Of a stretch of DNA of 46,039 bases, positions 1,854-46,039 are shown in pieces. A program made the translations under genes and the position numbers. The notes beneath the pieces are model-generated. The model saw only the letters and a list, made by a program, of their open reading frames with translations, did not search any database and had not been told where the DNA came from. The stretch spans positions 1 to 46,039 of IMG/VR virus record IMGVR_UViG_3300020171_000051; one strand, given 5' to 3'. How positions within the stretch are numbered: the first letter of the stretch is position 1; each line of letters opens with the position of its first letter. Source of the stretch: a virus.

Positions 1854-1902
1854 TTCATCCATTCATTTTCTCTTCTATAGAAGGGGAAATGGGTTGGGTG
1901 AG
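1854..1902 (+). promoter_or_regulatory. Conserved intergenic RNA hairpin (left copy)
   Basis: The arms pair over 22 bp, with one bulged T and a TATA loop: an outer TTCATCCA/TGGGTGAG stem plus a 14-bp inner stem with several G-U pairs. It starts directly after the upstream stop codon. The equivalent hairpin at 45412 keeps the fold with compensating base changes. No T-run follows, so an mRNA-processing or stability element is more likely than a plain terminator. Confidence 0.8.
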
Positions 1903-8234: not shown

Positions 8235-11200
8235 ATGCAAACAGTATCAGAATGGAAACAAAATAAGGCTGGAACATCAACTATAAATGTTGGACTACAA
8301 TCTGTTTCTGATTGGAAAAATACACCTATAAGCAGAGCAAGTAAAATTGCAACATTAAGACAAGATGTAGCACAAGCAGAAGTAGATGCAAATAAAGGAT
8401 TTCAACTATCTGATATTGCAAAGGGAGTTTATGGTTTATACAGTCCTTTGGTAAAAAGAATTGCACCGACATATACTCAACCCTTCAAGATTGCCTATGA
8501 AAGAGGAAAAGAGTTTATTGCAGGTTTGACTTCAGAAGAAAAGACAGCAGAAACAGTTGCGAAGGGTGTTCAAACTTTAACTGCTGGAGTAAGCACATTA
8601 TTTACACCGATTACCGCAGTATTTGAAGAAGCGTCTAAAGTTCCAGTATTAAAAGAAGCTGCACAAATTATTTCAATGCCATTTGAAGCAGGAGGAATTG
8701 TGGGAAGTTTTGCGGCAGATAGATTTGTTGATGTTTTACCAATAGGAAAAGAAAATAGAGATATTTTAAGAAGTTCATTTGAGGAAGCGGGAAGTTTGTT
8801 AGGTATGATATGGATAGGTGGAAAAGTAATGAAAACACTGACAAAAGGAGAATCTTTGACAAAAGAAAAAATTACAGAGTTCAAAGAAGAGGCAAAGGTA
8901 GTTCCTAAAACACTTGAAGTTATAGAAAAACAACAAGTTGCTGAACAACCAGTTAAAATGTCTGTGAAAGAGTGGAAAGAACAGGGAAAACCCGCAGAAC
9001 CACTTCAAGAAGCAAAAATTCTTCGTGGCACAAAAGGAATGACAGCGGATGATATAATGGCTAAATATCCTAATATTAAATTAACCAAAGATGTTCCAGC
9101 AAAAGATATATATGGAAATAAAATAGAAATTCCAAAAGGTGAAACACTTACTCCTTATGAATTAAAGGGAAATAAAATATTATTACAAGATGGCGACACT
9201 TATATTGTATCTAAAAATCAATTTCAAAATATAAAAGGACAAAGCGTGATAGCGGAAGCTAAAGAGTTTGCCCCTGAATTGAAGGGGTTGGAGGAGAGTG
9301 TGAGGGGAGAAACACCAAAGATAGTGTTTGGGGAAAACAATCTCAATAGAATTTCTCAAGAAAGATATGGGATAAATTGGACAGAACTGACACCAAATAA
9401 ACAGGCATTGGTAAAGAAAATTGCCGAAGAAAGACATACAACTGGTGCTACCAAATTCTCCTCCTATCAACTCCCAGGAGGAAAGAACTATAAAGAGATA
9501 TTGATTAAGGCTAAACCCGAAACCTTTGAAGGAGTGAAAATGCAAGATTTAACAGATACACAATTAGCAAAAATAAATGAGCAAGGTTTCAAATCCTCCC
9601 ACTGGGACGAACCTAATGTTATCTCCCACCTCCGCCTAAACGAAAGAGCCTATCAAGGAAAGAAAGTAACATTTATGGAAGAATTGCAGAGTGATTGGGC
9701 GAGAGAAGTGAGAAAAAACGTTGGTTCACAAGATTTTAATGTTGCAAATAAAAATCTTGATGATTATGTCAAAATTTTAACAGATAAATATAGTGCTGAA
9801 AAGTGGAGTGATGTAATGAAAAAAGCAACCAATGAAGAATTTACAAAATGGTCTCAATTAAACGAAGCAGTAAATAACTCTACAAAAGTCCCCAACAACC
9901 CTCTCCTCAAAAACTGGCAAGAACTCTCTATCAAAAGAGCCTTAAAAGAAGCAGTAGATAATAAAAGCGATTATTTTTCTTGGATAAATGGAGAACAAAC
10001 AAGTGCGAGGTATAACTTGGCGACACACATCAACGAGGCAAAGTGGAAAACTGGTTCTGATGGAGTAAGAAAAATATCTCTTAATGTAAAAGAGGGTGGT
10101 CAATTAAGTGATTTTGTTGTAGAAAAAGACGGAACGATGAGTTATCCAATGGGTTATGCGGGCAAGAAACTTGATGAAGTTCTCGGCAAAGGTTTAGCCG
10201 ACTCCATAATGGCTAAACCATCAGGCACCCTTTCAGGTGAAGGATTAAAATTCGGTGGTGAATGGGCTACTAACCTCTACGACAAGCAAATCAAGAATAT
10301 CGTAGAAGATGTTACTGGTGGAAAAGTAGTGAAGTTGGATATGGGGTTGCCGATAGAGAAAAGTGCAGAACGATGGATTACACCAGCAAGGGGAGGTCTT
10401 CCAACGAGAATGATTAAACCAGAAGACTTGAAAGTAGGTAAAGAGATTGAAAAAGTAAATGCAGGAGGAGCTTTAATAGATGCAAAATACATCATCACCG
10501 ACATTCTCGGAGATGGGAAGTTTAAGGCGGTGCCAAAAGAAGTATGGGTAAGAAGAGTTGAAGGAAAAATAAAAGGAGAAAAAGCGGGAGATTATCAAGG
10601 TATGCCAAATTGGAAAGACAAAAAAGAAACCTTTGACATCTCCACCAAAACCACTACCCAGCAAGGTATAAAACTAACCCCAGAGATTAAGGCAAAAATA
10701 CGAGAAGAAGCGCCCAAGATTAAGACGAGTGGGGAACAATTTGCGCCAGAAGTTCCAATAGGAAAACCATCAGGAGTAGCAAAAAGTATTGAAGCAAAGG
10801 CAATAGAACAAGGACTTATAGACAAAGGATTTGATAAACTTGCTGAATACGAACCTGCTGTTATTAAGGAACAATCTCAAATAATGTCTGATATAATGAA
10901 AACAGATATTGAGAGAGCAAAAAGACTTGCAAAAGGACAAGAAGTATTGCCAGAGAGATTAAAAGGAGCGACAGCACTTCAAGCAATGGAAGATTATGCT
11001 ATGGAGACAAAAGATGGACAATTAGCATTAGATTTAGCAAATTCGCCTATTGCGACAGAGATAAGTGTTGCAGGACAAACATTAAGATTATCGGCAGAAA
11101 GAACGCCAGATAGTGCTACCGCCAAGATTAAAGAAATACAGAAAGAAAGACAAAAAGCAGTTGAAAAAAAGTTAAAGGGAAAAGATACCACAAAAGTTAA

Positions 11201-27330: not shown

Positions 27331-27436
27331 ACTGCTCTAATTCAAGCAAAACTGCGTTCTGGGGCGTTTAAATAGGTGTAATAAGCATATCTATCAAAAT
27401 GCCTTAAATTATCAATAACCTAACCAATAAAATAAG

Positions 27437-27703
27437 ATGAAAGAAGAAATAAAAGAAATACTCGGTAAACATAAGGCAATTGGAGATACAACCTATGGGC
27501 TTGGATATGCAGAAGCCGAGCAACTCACCAATGAAATAATCGCATTCTTCTCTAAAAGGGCTGATGTGATTTATCAAGAGAGAAAAGAAGAGTTAGAAAA
27601 AGTCCATTTTAGAGATAAGAGCCGCACCTTTGTCATTGCTGGACTGGATTTAATTTATAACTTCAAGAAAGATGTTTTTGATAATGAAGATTTAACCCCC
27701 TAA
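27437..27703 (+). CDS. Small helical protein, unknown
   Basis: The product has 88 residues and is helical and charged (EIKEILGKHKAIGDTTYGLGYAEAEQL). Start context is ACCAATAAAATAAGATG, a boundary form repeated at several genes in this stretch. No motif is recognised. The 106 bases before it hold no clear signal. Confidence 0.55.
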   Translation: MKEEIKEILGKHKAIGDTTYGLGYAEAEQLTNEIIAFFSKRADVIYQERKEELEKVHFRDKSRTFVIAGLDLIYNFKKDVFDNEDLTP

Positions 27704-27713
27704 CTATATCAAG

Positions 27714-28067
27714 ATGAAGAAAGAAATTAAAACCAATAATGGTATCTGGGCTTATCACGGAACGAATAAAGAAAATGCACTTAAAATAATAAAAAGTGGA
27801 TTTGCTGTCGGAACTCATTTTGCCCATCATCTTGAAGAATGTTTGGAATTTGGCGGTTCGTGGGTGTTTCGTATCAGGTGGGAAAATAAGCCAGATAATT
27901 GGCAATTTCTTAACAAGAAACGTATTCCACCAAGTAGAATAGACCGACTTACACAATTTCGTTCGATTGTTAGGATTGGAACACAACCACACCTTACGAG
28001 AAAATTAGATGGTAAAGCCGAACATTATAATTTATTAGGTATCCCCCTAACCCCTATATCAAGATGA
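27714..28067 (+). CDS. Possible ADP-ribosyltransferase-like protein
   Basis: The product has 117 residues. IWAYHGTNKENALKIIKSGFAVGTHFAHHLEECLEFGGSW follows the H-G-T / G-F...G-T-F-A pattern of ART/PARP-type folds, where the His binds NAD. The glutamate expected later could be one of those in ECLEFGG. Phage ARTs modify host proteins or tRNA, but activity here is not shown. It lies among small accessory genes and overlaps the next ATG; its last codons run through the boundary repeat. Confidence 0.4.
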   Translation: MKKEIKTNNGIWAYHGTNKENALKIIKSGFAVGTHFAHHLEECLEFGGSWVFRIRWENKPDNWQFLNKKRIPPSRIDRLTQFRSIVRIGTQPHLTRKLDGKAEHYNLLGIPLTPISR

Positions 28068-28288
28068 AAAAGAAAAATAAGATAAACTTTAACGAAATGC
28101 CTGCAAAAACTTATATTGCTAATAATGGTTGGGTTTCGCAATGGTGTTGCACTTGCAAAACAAGACATATACTGCATCTCAAAATTCATAAAGGCAATAA
28201 AGAAACTGGTGGTGCTTATATAGAGATAAACTGGTTTCAAGATAATCTGGGAACAAAATTAAGGAAATTCTATGAGAAACACTTTTAA
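28064..28288 (+). CDS. Small Cys-containing basic protein
   Basis: The product has 74 residues. WCCTCKTRHILHLKIH gives a Cys/His cluster that may bind zinc, with a beta-like IEINW segment after it. It starts at the end of the boundary repeat (TCAAGATG), overlapping the previous stop. No family is recognised. Confidence 0.5.
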   Translation: MKKKNKINFNEMPAKTYIANNGWVSQWCCTCKTRHILHLKIHKGNKETGGAYIEINWFQDNLGTKLRKFYEKHF

Positions 28289-28309
28289 CCCCCTAACCCC
28301 TATATCAAG

Positions 28310-28621
28310 ATGAAACAAACAAAAGAAAACTTAATAATAGAACTGACTAAAATTAGGCAATCTCACGAAGAATGGGTTGCTGGAGATTTGAAACGAAGAA
28401 AAGAATTTGCGAGAGCATTTAGATGGAATAAACCTAAAAAGCAATATGATTATGGAGATGCTGAATTATATGAACCAACTTGGGTGGAAATATTTGTTGA
28501 ATTGGGAAAACTCCTCGCTGTTAAAAACTTTATGGATTTTAAAGGTAATATATCGGAGTTAGAATGTAAATTAGAAAATCTTGAACAGAAAATTAAAAAA
28601 GAAATACATCCTAATTTATAA
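28310..28621 (+). CDS. Helical protein, unknown
   Basis: The product has 103 residues, Lys/Glu-rich and helical, with a C-terminal coiled coil (ISELECKLENLEQKIKKEI). It starts in the boundary repeat. Nothing else is recognised. Confidence 0.55.
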   Translation: MKQTKENLIIELTKIRQSHEEWVAGDLKRRKEFARAFRWNKPKKQYDYGDAELYEPTWVEIFVELGKLLAVKNFMDFKGNISELECKLENLEQKIKKEIHPNL

Positions 28622-28634
28622 CCAATAAAATAAT

Positions 28635-28775
28635 ATGAAAGGAGAAATAAATAATGACATAATAAGCGAAGAGGAATTAGTTGATATGTTTGGCGAAGGT
28701 GGAGCAGAAGAAGTTAAAGAAAACTTTTCAAGTGAAAGTATAGAAGATATTGTAAGAACAGATTTTATAAATTAA
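28635..28775 (+). CDS. Short acidic protein
   Basis: The product has 46 residues and is very acidic (SEEELVDMFGEGGAEEVKENF). Start context is ACCAATAAAATAATATG. DNA-mimic or inhibitor roles are known for such phage proteins, but nothing here shows one. Confidence 0.45.
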   Translation: MKGEINNDIISEEELVDMFGEGGAEEVKENFSSESIEDIVRTDFIN

Positions 28776-28788
28776 CCCCTATATCAAG

Positions 28789-28956
28789 ATGAATAAAGAA
28801 ACATTAAAAGACAAAATAATATCGTGGTATTGGACGTTGTTGAGAAAAGTAATGAACTACACTCTTAAACATTATGGATATGATTTTGGAATATACTATA
28901 TGGAAGAAATTGAAAAAATGTATATTACAAACAAGCATTTAATTAAAAGAGACTAA
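28789..28956 (+). CDS. Short aromatic-rich protein
   Basis: The product has 55 residues, rich in Tyr, Trp and Lys (IISWYWTLLRKVMNYTLKHYGYDF), and amphipathic. It starts in the boundary repeat and ends in another copy of it. No family is recognised. Confidence 0.45.
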   Translation: MNKETLKDKIISWYWTLLRKVMNYTLKHYGYDFGIYYMEEIEKMYITNKHLIKRD

Positions 28957-29007
28957 CCCCCTAACCCCTATATCAAAATAATTATTAACTCTAACCAATA
29001 AAATAAG

Positions 29008-29211
29008 ATGAAAAACATAAAACCAAAAATAAAACATACAAGATTAGATACCATAATTGTTTCTTATAAGAAAAAGAGATATGAATTATATTTTGACCAA
29101 AATGATTATAGTGTCTTTATTGGAGAACCACAAGAAGGTTCATTAATAACAATTCCAAATCCATTAAATGAAAACGGAGAAATGAAGTTTAGTTATTATA
29201 AGGAATGGTAA
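29008..29211 (+). CDS. Small beta-type protein, unknown
   Basis: The product has 67 residues, with short beta segments (DTIIVSYKKKRYELYF, DYSVFIG). Start context is ACCAATAAAATAAGATG, the same 17-base form as at 27437. No known motif. Confidence 0.5.
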   Translation: MKNIKPKIKHTRLDTIIVSYKKKRYELYFDQNDYSVFIGEPQEGSLITIPNPLNENGEMKFSYYKEW

Positions 29212-35597: not shown

Positions 35598-37199
35598 ATG
35601 GAACAAGAACAAATGATTATCCTAACAGGATACGAAGCCAGAGTAAAGTTAATGGCTGGAATAGAAAAAGCTGCTAAAATTATAAACTCCACGCTGGGGC
35701 CTGGAGGGAAGAATGTTATTTATGAGTCAGAGTACAACAGGCGAGTAAATGTAGCTGATGATATGTATGATAGTCAAGCTCCAACAATTACAAATGATGG
35801 GGTAAAAGTTGCTTCAAAGGTAATTTTTGAAGACCCCATTGAAGATTTGGGGGCACAAGCATTATTTGAGGTCTCAAAACAGCAAAACATAGAAGCAGGA
35901 GACGCTACCACCACAGTAGTAACGATTGCTCACAAACTAATTCAGTTGATAATGAATAAACTAAATGAGGGAGGTGAATTAGATGTTGAGACTATAAATA
36001 GAATGGAGCTTAAAAGGGAACTAAACAAAGCCAAAGACGAGGTGATTGCCGAACTTAAAAAGAAAGCCAAACCAATTAAGACCCTACAAGAACTTGAAAA
36101 TATAGCAATGACAGCGGGAGAGAACGAGTTTATTGATAAAAAAATAGCGGAAGCGTGGTGGAAAGTAGGAAAAGATGGTTGGGTTGGAGTTGAAGGACAC
36201 AAAGGACTTGAGACAGAAATTGAAGTTCACGAAGGTATGAGATTTCACGCCAAGTTAATGAGTGAGTATATGAGAACCAATGCAAAAGGTGAAATGGAAG
36301 TAAAAGAACCCCTCGTTATTGTAACTAATCACGATATAGATAATTCAGAACAAATAAAAGGATGGATACAAAAAGCGACACAAAAAATAAAATTTGACAT
36401 AGTTTTATTTGCCCCAAAGTTTTCAGCCAAAGCGACAGATTTTATAAATACAGCAAGAATGAAAGTGGAACAATTCAATGTAGCAAACAAAAATAAAGGA
36501 GTAAAAGCGGTAAGATTATTTGCAGTTAAAATTCCTTCATTAACCGAAAAGGAAGGGGGACAAGTGGAAGACCTTGCAATTTTTACAGGAGCAAAGTTTA
36601 TAGACAAACACAAATCAATGAGTATGGAAGATTCTAATGTTGATTATTTCGGATATGCTACAAAAGTATTCTGTGATAATGACATAGCAATCGTAGCCAG
36701 TGATAATGGAGATGTAAAAAAGAGAATAAAGGATTTAACAATTCAAATGAACTCCGAAAAAGACGACACATTTAAAAATCGCCTAAAAAATAGAATAGCA
36801 TCACTATCATCAGGCATAGCTATAGTAAAGGTAGGAGCAACAACTGATACTGAGAGAAGATATATCAAACTTAAAACAGACGATGCGGTTCATTCTTGTG
36901 GAAATGCACTGCAAGATGGATATATTACTGGAGCGGGACAGGTTCTTAAAAAACTACCTTGTAAAAATGAATATCTTAAAAAGGCGTTAGAGTCACCTTA
37001 TAATCAGATACAAACAAATGCAGGAAATATAGATATACCAAAGTGGGTAATAGACCCAGTAAAATCAATGATACTTGCGATAGAAAGAGCTGTAAGTATG
37101 GCATCAATGATTATCACCATTGATACTTGTGTGGCTTATAAGAGGGATAATGATTTAAGTAAAAAGTTTGATGAGATATTAAAAGTATTAAAGAAATAA
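35598..37199 (+). CDS. groEL-like: GroEL-type chaperonin, phage-encoded
   Basis: The protein has 533 residues, near the usual 540. Family marks in order: LGPGGKNV (32-39), ITNDGVKVA, DLGAQA, GDATTTVV (near 101, catalytic Asp kept), the apical domain, SSGIAIVKVGATTDTE (near 405), the ATPase Asp in KTDDAVHS (near 424), and VIDPVKSMILAIERAVSMASMII (near 484). The GGM tail is missing. No GroES gene is seen nearby. Phage chaperonins fold virion proteins, often without a co-chaperonin; the terminase and capsid genes follow directly. Confidence 0.92.
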   Translation: MEQEQMIILTGYEARVKLMAGIEKAAKIINSTLGPGGKNVIYESEYNRRVNVADDMYDSQAPTITNDGVKVASKVIFEDPIEDLGAQALFEVSKQQNIEAGDATTTVVTIAHKLIQLIMNKLNEGGELDVETINRMELKRELNKAKDEVIAELKKKAKPIKTLQELENIAMTAGENEFIDKKIAEAWWKVGKDGWVGVEGHKGLETEIEVHEGMRFHAKLMSEYMRTNAKGEMEVKEPLVIVTNHDIDNSEQIKGWIQKATQKIKFDIVLFAPKFSAKATDFINTARMKVEQFNVANKNKGVKAVRLFAVKIPSLTEKEGGQVEDLAIFTGAKFIDKHKSMSMEDSNVDYFGYATKVFCDNDIAIVASDNGDVKKRIKDLTIQMNSEKDDTFKNRLKNRIASLSSGIAIVKVGATTDTERRYIKLKTDDAVHSCGNALQDGYITGAGQVLKKLPCKNEYLKKALESPYNQIQTNAGNIDIPKWVIDPVKSMILAIERAVSMASMIITIDTCVAYKRDNDLSKKFDEILKVLKK

Positions 37200-41266: not shown

Positions 41267-41559
41267 TGAATAAATTTGTAGATAATCTTATAGATGAAAC
41301 ACAATTTCTTACATTCAACAAGAATGAGGTTTTTATTCGTGGCAAGAAGTTAGATAAAGACCAAATCAATGAATTAAAGGACTCCGCAAAGGCATTTTAC
41401 AACTCACCTATTTGGAGGATGTTAGTTCAAGAAGTTAGAAATGAATCAGTTATGGCACTTTATAAAGCCAATCCAAATGTGCCTACTGAATCAATAGCAG
41501 GTCAAACAATGTTATTAAACCTTGAGATAATGGAAAAATTACTCAAGAAATTAACCTAA
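41266..41559 (+). CDS. Small helical protein before scaffold
   Basis: The product has 97 residues, helical (DQINELKDSAKAFYNSPIWRMLVQEVRNESVMALYKA). It lies in the capsid operon between portal and scaffold, translated with the previous gene (TAATG). It may be an assembly factor. The function is unknown. Confidence 0.5.
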   Translation: MNKFVDNLIDETQFLTFNKNEVFIRGKKLDKDQINELKDSAKAFYNSPIWRMLVQEVRNESVMALYKANPNVPTESIAGQTMLLNLEIMEKLLKKLT

Positions 41560-41571
41560 TGGGTTTAATAT

Positions 41572-41659
41572 GAGGGTCTTAGCTTCGGCTGTGTTCCAAG
41601 ACCCTCACACTAAGTCCATTAGGACAGGTTGGGTAAGCCTTAATTACCATTAAGAACCC
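41572..41659 (+). promoter_or_regulatory. Structured mRNA leader before scaffold gene
   Basis: The 125-base gap holds hairpins in a row: GAGGGTCTT/AAGACCCTC (9 bp) around an AGC-TTCG-GCT mini-stem with a UUCG loop; GTCC-ATTA-GGAC; and CTTAAT-TACC-ATTAAG, with GGGT/ACCC around it. No promoter is seen. It may set the scaffold-to-portal ratio by RNA processing or translation control. Confidence 0.55.
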
Positions 41660-42930: not shown

Positions 42931-44717
42931 ATGAAATTAGATGCACAAGTCGTCTCTTAATTCGTAGCGACTTTTTAGTGGAAACACTAATTGACAAATC
43001 TTGCCTAATCAATGGGGAAAACCCTGAGAAGGACAACCCTCAAGAACCCGAAAGGGACTTGCAGAGACTGAGTGGTGAGACTCCTAACAGATAATGCTGA
43101 GGAAGAAGCGACAGTCCGAACTACACATATAATCTAAAAACGAAAGTGTAGAGATAAGTAGAAATGACTTATCCATTAGAACCTTGAAAATTACATAGCA
43201 ATAGAGTATAATATCATAGATGGTATTTTATAGAGGAAACAAAGAAAGACTTGGGACAAAACACAAACAAGAGACAATCAATAAAATGAGGAGGTCTGAT
43301 GTGTGGTCTAATATAGATGAAGCCAAGAGATTATATTTAGAAGGTAAAACTTGTAGAGAAATTGGTGAAATCTTAAAAATCAATCATATTACACTTGGAA
43401 AGGGATTGAAACGAATTGGTGTTAAAATGAGAATGTCTAAACCACGAAAAGGAAATATCGCTTGGAATAAAGGAAAGAGATATTTAGCAATTACTGGAGA
43501 TAAAAACCCTAACTGGAAAGGAGGTATTTCAGGAATCAGAGATGAAATCAGACATTGTTTAGAATATAAACAATGGAGAAAGGAAGTCTTTGAACGAGAT
43601 AATTATACTTGTAAAAAATGTAATAAAAGAGGTGGAGAATTAGAAATCCACCACAATATAAAAACATTTTCTGAGATTTTAATATCAAATAATATAAAAT
43701 CAACGGAAGATGCAATACTATGTAATGAGTTTTGGAATATAGATAACGGGATAACTCTTTGTCTAAATTGCCACAATAAAACAAAAGGTAATAATAGTAA
43801 CAAAATGACGAACAGAGCTTGATGAGGTTCTCTTTGAGGAATATGAAAGGGAGTCAGCTCCAGGCGAAATTCTCGCAACTGATGGTTTGTTCGTAAAGCA
43901 AAAGGATATATCAAAAGGGTATGTAATATACGCTGAAAATATGGGTCCTGGCGCTTTTGAAAAACACGTTCAGGAGCAAAATGTAAAAGAGTCAACTACA
44001 AAAGTTGGCAATAAAGTAACGAAGGAAATAGAAAACTGGAAGAACTCTTTGCCCGTGGCGATTGAGTCTTACGAAGATGACCAGCACGATGTTATCCAAG
44101 ATAATGTTCGTGAGATGGGAATTAACGCAAGAATCACAAGGGATAAAGATGTAATTCAGACATTGTATGGTGATGGATTTGACGAGACAACGACACCTGA
44201 CGGTGTTTATACTTGGTCAAACTCACACTTAAATCTAAATGGGGACACAATAGATAATCTGGAAACAGGAACACTAACTCCAGCAAACCTTGAAACACTT
44301 GTTAAGTCATTAAGACTGCAAAAGAAACAAGATGGTTTGTTAGGTGGACACAATCCAGCAGGATTGGCAGTCCCAGTAGCATTATTCCCTGACGCGCAGG
44401 AAATAACAAAATCAGAATTAGCAGCTCACACAGGTGAAAATCAACTTAACTACTTCTCGGCAATTTATCCAGGATTAGTAGTTGGCTCATCTGGTTTTCT
44501 TGACAGCACCTTTAACGACTACACCAATGCTAATACTTCACATTATTTGGTATCAAGAAATCACAAACTTACAAGAACAGTAAGATTAGGATTGACCACA
44601 GAATTGATACCTTATCAATTTGACCAAAAAGACAGATGGTTTTACAAGGCACGATATAGAGAGGTGCCTTCAGCTAAAGGTTGGCAGGGAGCAGTAGCTT
44701 CTTCTGGAACAGTCTAA
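42931..44717 (+). CDS. Major capsid protein, interrupted by a group I intron
   Basis: Exon 1 is 42931-42953 (23 bases) and exon 2 is 43811-44717; joined they give 309 residues in one frame, starting MKLDAQVVTELDEVLFEEYE. Without splicing the frame stops soon after exon 1 (TCTTAA). The body (YTWSNSHLN, LAVPVALFPDAQEI, FYKARYREVP) fits an HK97-fold coat protein of Mu gpT-like style. Exon 2 alone is open back to 43809. The C-terminal 208 residues match the left window end. It forms the capsid shell. Confidence 0.88.
42954..43810 (+). mobile_element. Group I intron with HNH gene in the capsid gene
   Basis: P1: exon end AAGTCGT pairs with GCGACTT, with the splice-site U-G pair in the right place. 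P2: TTAGTG-GAAA-CACTAA. A GGGG-AAAA-CCC stem then GACAACCC and the core GCAGAGACTG follow; P7 pairs GACTG (43066) with CAGTC (43112). Stems CTACAC/GTGTAG and GATAAGT/ACTTATC come after. The intron ends in G (43810). Length is 857 bases. Splicing here restores the coat frame. P10 pairing is not clear. Confidence 0.88.
43184..43212 (+). promoter_or_regulatory. Sigma70-type promoter inside intron, leaderless HNH gene
   Basis: TTGAAA, 17 bases, TATAAT, ending seven bases before the HNH ATG. The same hexamers and spacing occur before the holin (22586). The HNH gene may thus be made from its own transcript, apart from the capsid mRNA. Confidence 0.7.
43220..43822 (+). CDS. Intron-encoded HNH homing endonuclease
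   Basis: The protein has 200 residues. An N-terminal helix-turn-helix-like segment (KRLYLEGKTCREIGEILKINHITLGKGLKRIG), a NPNWKGG motif as in NUMOD-type DNA-binding modules, and a C-terminal HNH core (CKKCNKRGGELEIHHN, then NGITLCLNCHNKTKG) are all present. Its last 12 bases run into exon 2. It would cut intronless capsid genes to spread the intron. It has its own promoter. Confidence 0.9.
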   Translation: MVFYRGNKERLGTKHKQETINKMRRSDVWSNIDEAKRLYLEGKTCREIGEILKINHITLGKGLKRIGVKMRMSKPRKGNIAWNKGKRYLAITGDKNPNWKGGISGIRDEIRHCLEYKQWRKEVFERDNYTCKKCNKRGGELEIHHNIKTFSEILISNNIKSTEDAILCNEFWNIDNGITLCLNCHNKTKGNNSNKMTNRA

Positions 44718-44733
44718 TTATTACTAACCAACT

Positions 44734-45411
44734 ATGACTATGAAAGAAACAATTAAATTAGTCGCTATAGTTCTCATTGCAGGACTTATTGGTGGTTTCG
44801 TAGGCGGTCTGGTTGGTAATCAATCAGACTACTTAGGAAGTGGCACACGCTTTCCCAGTGGGTTAAGTGCAGACGGCACTTCACCTATTGCGGGAGAAGT
44901 TAGAGGAACTACTCTAACGATTACAGGAGCACAAACTCTTACAGGGGCAACAACTCTTTCAAGCACCCTTACAGCAAATGGATTAGCTACATTTAATGCG
45001 GGGTATTATCACAGTTATACTAATTCAACATCTACAACGGCAACGACTCAAACTCTTGTAGCTGCAGATATCTTGAATTACACAAGTATAATTTTGACAC
45101 CTAATGTTGGAGCATTAACACTCACATTTCCAGCTTCTTCTACTCTATCGGCAATGGTGCCAGTAGCAGGAGATAGTTTTAAGCAATGTTGGTATAACGC
45201 TACAACAACCGCAGCAGTAACAATTACATTTGCAGCAGGAACAGGTATTGATTTTCAGAGAGCAGCAACTACAACTACGGATGGTGGAGCTACAACAGCA
45301 TTTCCTATTGACGAACAAGGTTATGCTTGTCTAACATACTTTAGACAACCAGCAACATCTTCAACATTTGATATTGGTGTTCTTATGACAGGATATCTAA
45401 ATGCGGATTAG
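44734..45411 (+). CDS. Variable virion-type protein, second version
   Basis: The product has 225 residues. A hydrophobic N-terminus (LVAIVLIAGLIGGFVGGLVG) is followed by the same VGNQS-YLG-GTRFPSG-SAD-SP block as in the protein at 1215, then a diverged body and a longer C-terminus with GTGIDFQRAATTTTDGGATTAF. Neighbouring genes are almost identical between copies, so this gene changes faster. Start at ATG 44734, with a second ATG at 44740. Confidence 0.6.
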   Translation: MTMKETIKLVAIVLIAGLIGGFVGGLVGNQSDYLGSGTRFPSGLSADGTSPIAGEVRGTTLTITGAQTLTGATTLSSTLTANGLATFNAGYYHSYTNSTSTTATTQTLVAADILNYTSIILTPNVGALTLTFPASSTLSAMVPVAGDSFKQCWYNATTTAAVTITFAAGTGIDFQRAATTTTDGGATTAFPIDEQGYACLTYFRQPATSSTFDIGVLMTGYLNAD

Positions 45412-45455
45412 TTCATCCATTCAACTTCTCAATTTGGGAAGTTGAGTTGGGTGAG
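45412..45455 (+). promoter_or_regulatory. Conserved intergenic RNA hairpin (right copy)
   Basis: Outer stem TTCATCCA/TGGGTGAG and an 11-bp inner stem TTCAACTTCTC/GGGAAGTTGAG around AATTT, with the same bulged T as at 1854. Inner pairs have changed together between the copies (T-A to A-T, T-A to C-G), so the fold is under selection. Confidence 0.8.
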
Positions 45456-45484
45456 CTAAAATTAAAAGTTAACAATTAACGATT

Positions 45485-45871
45485 ATGAACAAAATTATTG
45501 GAATAGGAATAGTGGTAATAGGACTTATTGTCTTATTGACTACTGGAACTATGCAACTTGGTGGAGTGGTTCAAAATACGCCAACATATTCTGATGTGGC
45601 CACAAGTGGAATTATATCATTTACAAGTTCTACTCAGATATTGGCAACAACATCAAGAAGGGCTTATGCTGTAATATGCAACACGACAGCAACGAATGCC
45701 GCTTATTTAAGTTTTAGAGCAGATGCAGTGCCAGCTAACGGACTATTAGATTTTGAACTTGGAACTGGTGAATGTTATGAAATTGACAATGACAACCTTT
45801 ATGTAGGAGCTGTTAGAGCAACATCATCAACAGGCACAATAAATTTAACAGTAACAGAATTTAAAGATTAA
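45485..45871 (+). CDS. Small virion-type protein with N-terminal membrane segment, second version
   Basis: The product has 128 residues, the same length and N-terminal hydrophobic segment as the protein at 1932, with about six changes (Asn to Asp in YSDV, Met to Ile and Ile to Phe in the next segment, Ser to Ala, and two near EIDNDN). The TAATG overlap with the adaptor gene is kept. Confidence 0.65.
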   Translation: MNKIIGIGIVVIGLIVLLTTGTMQLGGVVQNTPTYSDVATSGIISFTSSTQILATTSRRAYAVICNTTATNAAYLSFRADAVPANGLLDFELGTGECYEIDNDNLYVGAVRATSSTGTINLTVTEFKD

Positions 45872-46039
45872 TGACCACTCAAAACCTAAAGCAAGAACTT
45901 ACGGGAATGTTGCACGGAAGCACTCTTAATAAAGTGCGAAACTTTTACGATTTATGTAAAAGGGCTTCTGGCAATGTTTTACTAAAGATAGACCCCGCAG
46001 AAACGAGGAGAATTGCCAATCTTACAAACGCAATACACG
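45871..46039 (+). CDS. Head-tail adaptor-like protein, N-terminal part (cut by window end)
   Basis: The first 56 codons match the protein at 2318 (TTQNLKQELTGMLHGSTLNKV against TIQNLKAEISGMLHGSTLNKV), with the changes limited to the first residues. The rest is outside the window, or is the left copy if the unit is circular. Confidence 0.8.
   Translation, partial: MTTQNLKQELTGMLHGSTLNKVRNFYDLCKRASGNVLLKIDPAETRRIANLTNAIH

Follow-up and report, generated by a model that had tools for sequence, protein, structure and literature searches.

Why does a long hairpin stand directly behind the capsid genes of a phage, starting at a stop codon, and what keeps it paired while its sequence changes? The locus belongs to a virus record of 46,039 bases, analysed here at its full length (the window), and it is present there at two sites. 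Allele A of the hairpin, HP2 (1850-1906, + strand), has 26 bp, a 4-nt loop and a bulged T (1894) after 12 bp; allele B (45408-45459, + strand) has 24 bp and a bulged T (45447), again after 12 bp. An earlier note on this DNA had proposed a hairpin at both sites and given the first the extent 1854-1902. The hairpin is real, but these limits are too narrow: at both sites the stem is longer and reaches the upstream stop codon, the UAG at 1851-1853 sitting within the stem of allele A.

Each allele folds at about -31.5 kcal/mol on the + strand, far beyond chance, with z values of -7 to -11 against shuffles and zero shuffles equally stable. A sliding scan of both strands places the two alleles as the strongest 64-nt folds of the 46-kb window. 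The minus strand gives only -12.5 and -16.7 kcal/mol at these sites because many of the stem pairs are G·U, and the element is therefore a + strand RNA. Behind the stem, an AU-rich linker of 25 nt with no U-tract leads to the next start codon (1907-1931, + strand, in allele A; its counterpart in allele B is 45460-45484, + strand). The sequence that follows the stem in the window is AATTAAAA, in line with the earlier observation that there is no U-tail, and the tail is not U-rich in the family either: it holds at most 4 T in 8 nt in every member except L051 (5).

Two further views of the site were ruled out. A DNA-level palindrome as the main function fails on the G·T positions, which make the minus-strand fold far worse. 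Read-through of the stop codon into HP2 fails on the alleles themselves, which are 5 nt different, allele A having an in-frame TAG after eight codons.

HP2 separates a variable gene (212 aa, 1215-1853, in allele A; 225 aa, 44734-45411, in allele B; both + strand) from a gene of 128 aa (1932-2318 and 45485-45871, both + strand), homologues of which occupy the same place in relatives. In allele A, both flanking genes begin with a hydrophobic, membrane-like segment (1215-1290 and 1932-1990), which is odd for virion proteins beside a capsid gene. The major capsid protein gene of allele B lies at 43887-44717 (+ strand; PHROG 371, Pfam Phage_capsid_4 / Mu gpT), and that of allele A is truncated where the contig begins (ORF 26-628). 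The two regions also carry different HNH endonuclease genes, one between the capsid and variable genes of allele A (655-1218) and one upstream of the capsid gene of allele B (43220-43822); these are homing-type insertions that differ between strains.

Elsewhere in the window a large terminase gene and a GroEL-like gene are clear. The chaperonin gene (35598-37199) comes shortly before the terminase and is also found in the relatives L016, L025, L026, L032 and L033. Short dispersed direct repeats (26-55 bp, 80-96% identical) cluster among small genes at 27400-29013. Searched against 50,697 deposited phage records, the capsid, portal and p381 proteins gave no close match, and the lineage therefore appears to be uncultivated; a query with the capsid protein of L056 returned only distant phage matches. 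A Shine-Dalgarno-like motif precedes only 3 of the 37 ATG-started ORFs of the window and the upstream 20 nt are A-rich, features that would fit a Bacteroidota-like host, although this is a guess.

Is the pairing itself preserved? The two alleles share 23 pairs, of which 18 are identical, two changed on one side, three changed on both sides and none broken. The one-sided changes turn U·G into U-A (1863/1892 and 1869/1886). The two-sided changes are T-A to A-T (1866/1889 versus 45424/45442), T-A to C-G (1867/1888 versus 45425/45441) and again T-A to A-T (1873/1882 versus 45431/45435). The earlier note had named two of these three double changes and had described inner-stem pairs that differ yet all pair, an outer stem and single bulged T (1894; 45447) identical between the copies, and an inner stem differing by three pairs in length. 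All of this was borne out, the length difference becoming two pairs once copy B is credited with its closing A-U. Its claim that covariation marks a working RNA element is likewise supported, and relatives add much stronger covariation.

These relatives comprise more than 30 loci from IMG/VR, obtained with capsid, tail-protein and terminase queries. Where the gene that follows the capsid gene meets the p128-like gene, 21 of 23 capsid-family junctions have a hairpin, a count that takes in the two window alleles as well as L037 and L041, where the hairpin had been hidden by an overlong or close-set ORF. In L031, L048 and L052 it comes directly after the capsid gene. Four of the 21 are weak or irregular (L003, L025, L052 and L055), and the two remaining junctions, L029 with a gap of 27 nt and L044 with one of 18 nt, lack a hairpin. 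Furthermore, L015 and L004, which are related via the terminase and not via the capsid, also have a junction hairpin. Among gaps of 45-320 nt, the median fold z is -5.5 in HP2 gaps versus -1.1 in other gaps (p 1.3e-9), a descriptive p value, as the gap classes were set by flanking genes after the positions of HP2 and of a second hairpin, HP1, had been noticed by structure. Searches of viral contigs with the exact outer-stem pattern, and with the 128-aa protein alone, gave no matches, nor did searches of bacterial genomes with capsid and portal alignments.

In nearly all members the dominant fold has 19-27 bp, and in most the stem starts no more than 3 nt from the stop codon, is interrupted after 11-13 bp by a 3' bulge or a 1x2 internal loop, and leaves 20-30 nt to the next start codon. 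The usual form is 11-13 bp from the stop codon, the 3' bulge, then 9-14 bp, with no U-tract. Covariation was counted on eight relatives' hairpins that align by sequence alone, because a MAFFT alignment of all 16 hairpins misaligned the longer ones. The eight fit a single 21-bp structure, in which 17 of the 21 pairs have changed on both sides. In their alignment 95.7% of cells are paired; shuffles reach 70% and slid controls 38-51%. The first of these percentages is flattered, as the eight were picked because they fold and align and the structure was written by inspection, and more weight falls on the count of two-sided changes. On every measure, all 500 shuffles stay below the observed value.

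A covariance model built from these eight relatives' hairpins, with none from the window, was run on the window filter-free and ranks the two window hairpins first (E 9.7e-5 for allele B and 1.3e-4 for allele A; the next match has 0.4). Further matches of the model are the junction hairpins of L037 (3e-6), L028 (0.001) and L043 (0.007), L051 being borderline (0.05). The hairpins of L015, L056, L025, L039, L050 and L003 are not convincingly found by the model; they share position and general shape with the others, not demonstrable descent. HP2 is a genuine RNA hairpin, with pairing preserved through sequence change. Rfam 15 gave no matches at gathering score in the window and nine relatives, and no description of such a hairpin after capsid genes was found in the literature. 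Intercistronic phage hairpins are a familiar kind of element; a family of them with conserved architecture in an uncultivated group appears to be undescribed.

What could such an element do? HP2 lacks a U-tract, and the roughly 25 nt between it and the next gene would hardly accommodate a promoter outside the stem, so the downstream genes are probably transcribed through it. Sigma-70-like matches near HP2 are no more frequent than expected by chance, for a consensus that may not be this phage's own. On balance, we lean towards HP2 as a boundary for processing and/or 3'-end protection of the capsid mRNA. Once transcribed, it would set the 3' boundary of the capsid cistrons within a long late transcript, its two stacked helical turns starting at the stop codon that closes the capsid block. 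It would most likely serve as an RNase III-type (double-strand-specific) processing site, as a barrier to 3' exonucleases, or as both. A cut at HP2 or in the AU-rich linker would leave a capsid mRNA ending in a stable stem, and the same cut would create a new 5' end for the mRNA of the 128-aa and tail genes. The outcome would be much more capsid-block than tail protein from one transcript. The analysis shows the structure of HP2, its covariation, strand and conserved position and its lack of a U-tract; cleavage, the enzyme and the effect on protein ratios are what we infer. The preference for processing or stability over termination, already voiced in the earlier note, still names the likeliest function, and a U-tailed terminator drops out.

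Several results point towards processing or stability: the occurrence at 21 of 23 junctions, the two-sided changes at 17 of 21 pairs in eight relatives, a model free of window sequences that ranks the window hairpins first and recovers L037, L028 and L043, and junction folds that beat those of other gaps. Stems of 19-27 bp with a 3' bulge come near the size and shape of T7 R1.1 (PMC6121014), and intercistronic hairpins set segmental mRNA stability in the puf operon (PMC8625941). Against it, the internal loop of R1.1 (4/5 nt) is larger than the HP2 bulge, and L029 and L044 presumably manage without the hairpin.

A second hairpin may complete the picture at the other end of the capsid block. HP1 (41556-41622, + strand) lies between the p97-like and p220-like genes, before the latter, and a fold is found at the same place in most relatives (median z -4.3 in HP1 gaps; p 5.5e-6, descriptive); in the window its minus strand scores slightly better than the + strand. 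HP1 and HP2 bracket a block of p220, p176, capsid and variable gene, and the position of HP1 before this block suggests that the capsid segment may be bracketed on both sides. More speculatively, the fixed bulge of HP2 could be read by a dedicated, possibly phage-encoded protein, and HP2 together with HP1 could excise the capsid mRNA and so set virion stoichiometry, the inner stem being free to diversify as long as it stays paired; we offer this fuller scheme as a tentative idea with the odds against it.

A different strong hairpin occurs in terminase-related phages, directly after the probable capsid gene (L015, 7523-7580; L013, 8447-8508; L012, 16717-16776). These three share the loop ATCACCT and are possibly a second RNA family.

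Alternatively, HP2 might be a partial terminator or pause site that works without a U-tract and lowers transcription of the tail genes. Its position just after the capsid block, its strong stem and the downstream leader of about 25 nt would suit such a role, but at 20-27 bp the stem is longer than in typical intrinsic terminators, the conserved mid-stem bulge is not a terminator feature, and the 8 nt behind the stem hold no more than 4 T in all members but one. Lacking a U-tract, HP2 is unlikely to be a canonical terminator, and it is not among the terminator-like sites. We consider partial termination unlikely, if worth keeping in mind.

It is also conceivable that HP2 acts on translation, by blocking coupling to the 128-aa gene or by controlling its start. 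The stem begins at the stop codon and, in most members, ends at a near-constant 20-30 nt before the next start, and the conserved bulge could be a protein site, possibly one bound by a virion protein in the manner of the coat operator of RNA phages. The start codon and linker, however, lie outside the stem, and the folds contain no alternative pairing that would mask them, which leaves a translational role doubtful as well.

The earlier note took the two sites as two copies in one genome, and both regions do lie on one contig. Positions 1-645 are 97% identical to 44090-44734, and 1278-2486 are 77% identical to 44812-46039. The last 127 bases of the former stretch (2360-2486) are repeated exactly at the contig end (45913-46039), a sign of wrap-around assembly, and the base preceding the repeat differs between the two places. 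Exact overlaps of this kind are typical of assemblers, and a de Bruijn assembler run at k=127 would leave one of 127 bases at a branch. Both contig ends lie inside genes. The gene order of relatives runs on over the proposed join, and in L003 the genes portal, p97, p176, capsid, variable gene, p128, p381, p615, p479 follow one another without a break and in single copy; the capsid gene is single in 8 of 8 related records and p381 in 7 of 8, the eighth (L026) ending inside its capsid gene, before p381. A true duplication is very improbable on these grounds. The record most likely represents a genome of about 43.5 kb, circular or circularly permuted, with an assembly that ran on into the allele of a second strain. 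It is classed as linear, and the genome is probably circular or permuted. The locus is then one, with two strain alleles, and the covariation between A and B is therefore between strains. Seeming duplicate loci in metagenomic phage contigs can thus be strain alleles, which here provide a natural test of covariation.

Turnover of the inner stem and of the neighbouring gene is also seen among relatives. L032 and L033 have exactly the same hairpin architecture, with six inner positions of the 5' arm differing and pairing preserved. Over 500 nt, covering the upstream gene and the outer 5' arm, the two are 92-100% identical; identity in the flanks is 44-92%. In both, the gene after the capsid gene (8831-9343) is a recent cassette exchange, which, to judge from these identities, ended inside the hairpin. 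In another pair of phages, 99% identical, L038 (at 6872) lacks 361 bp present in L039 (6872-7232), most of the gene between capsid and hairpin, and keeps the hairpin. The exchange and the loss together indicate that the hairpin also borders a variable gene. Stem-loop cassette borders occur in T4-type phages, and an identity stretch that stops within the hairpin, like a hairpin retained beside a lost gene, would suit HP2 as a joint for variable-gene exchange with pairing as a side effect, but recombination explains neither the compensated inner-stem pairs nor the strong + strand preference of the RNA fold, and this is the least probable of the readings.

HP2 is an RNA element with good support and no Rfam counterpart, placed where a capsid block ends. 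Terminators or translation are the usual explanation for how phages obtain many capsid subunits but few tail parts from a single transcript; in HP2, a conserved stem of two turns with strong covariation, there is a specific candidate processing point. How does it compare with known elements? T7 T-phi is an intrinsic terminator after gene 10, the capsid gene, and HP2 is likewise positioned after the capsid block. However, HP2 differs from T-phi and other intrinsic terminators in having no U-tract, a stem about twice as long and a conserved bulge. In T4-type phages, promoter-stem-loop cassettes (PeSL) place stem-loops at the borders of exchangeable genes, as HP2 stands at the border of one; no promoter was recognised beside HP2, and it is fixed at one structural-gene junction.

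There is also a likeness to T7 R1.1, an RNase III signal of 60 nt that lies between genes 1.0 and 1.1 and contains an asymmetric internal loop (PMC6121014). HP2 shares with R1.1 the irregular shape, the length of about two helical turns, an irregularity in mid-stem and a place between cistrons of a polycistronic phage transcript. Sites of the T7 type have at least 20 bp between cistrons, and the window alleles have 26 and 24; the 21-bp stem of the family, with its mid-stem irregularity, comes close to RNase III substrates in size. The irregularity differs, a 0x1 or 1x2 bulge in HP2 against a 4/5 internal loop in R1.1. Moreover, R1.1 serves early genes, whereas HP2 lies among late structural genes and has a different sequence, and its cleavage is a prediction. 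In the Rhodobacter puf operon, an intercistronic hairpin sets segmental mRNA stability (PMC8625941), and HP2 likewise stands between cistrons whose products are needed in different amounts. The puf hairpin is bacterial and its effect on stability is measured, whereas HP2 belongs to a phage, where a comparable effect would adjust the output of capsid and tail genes.
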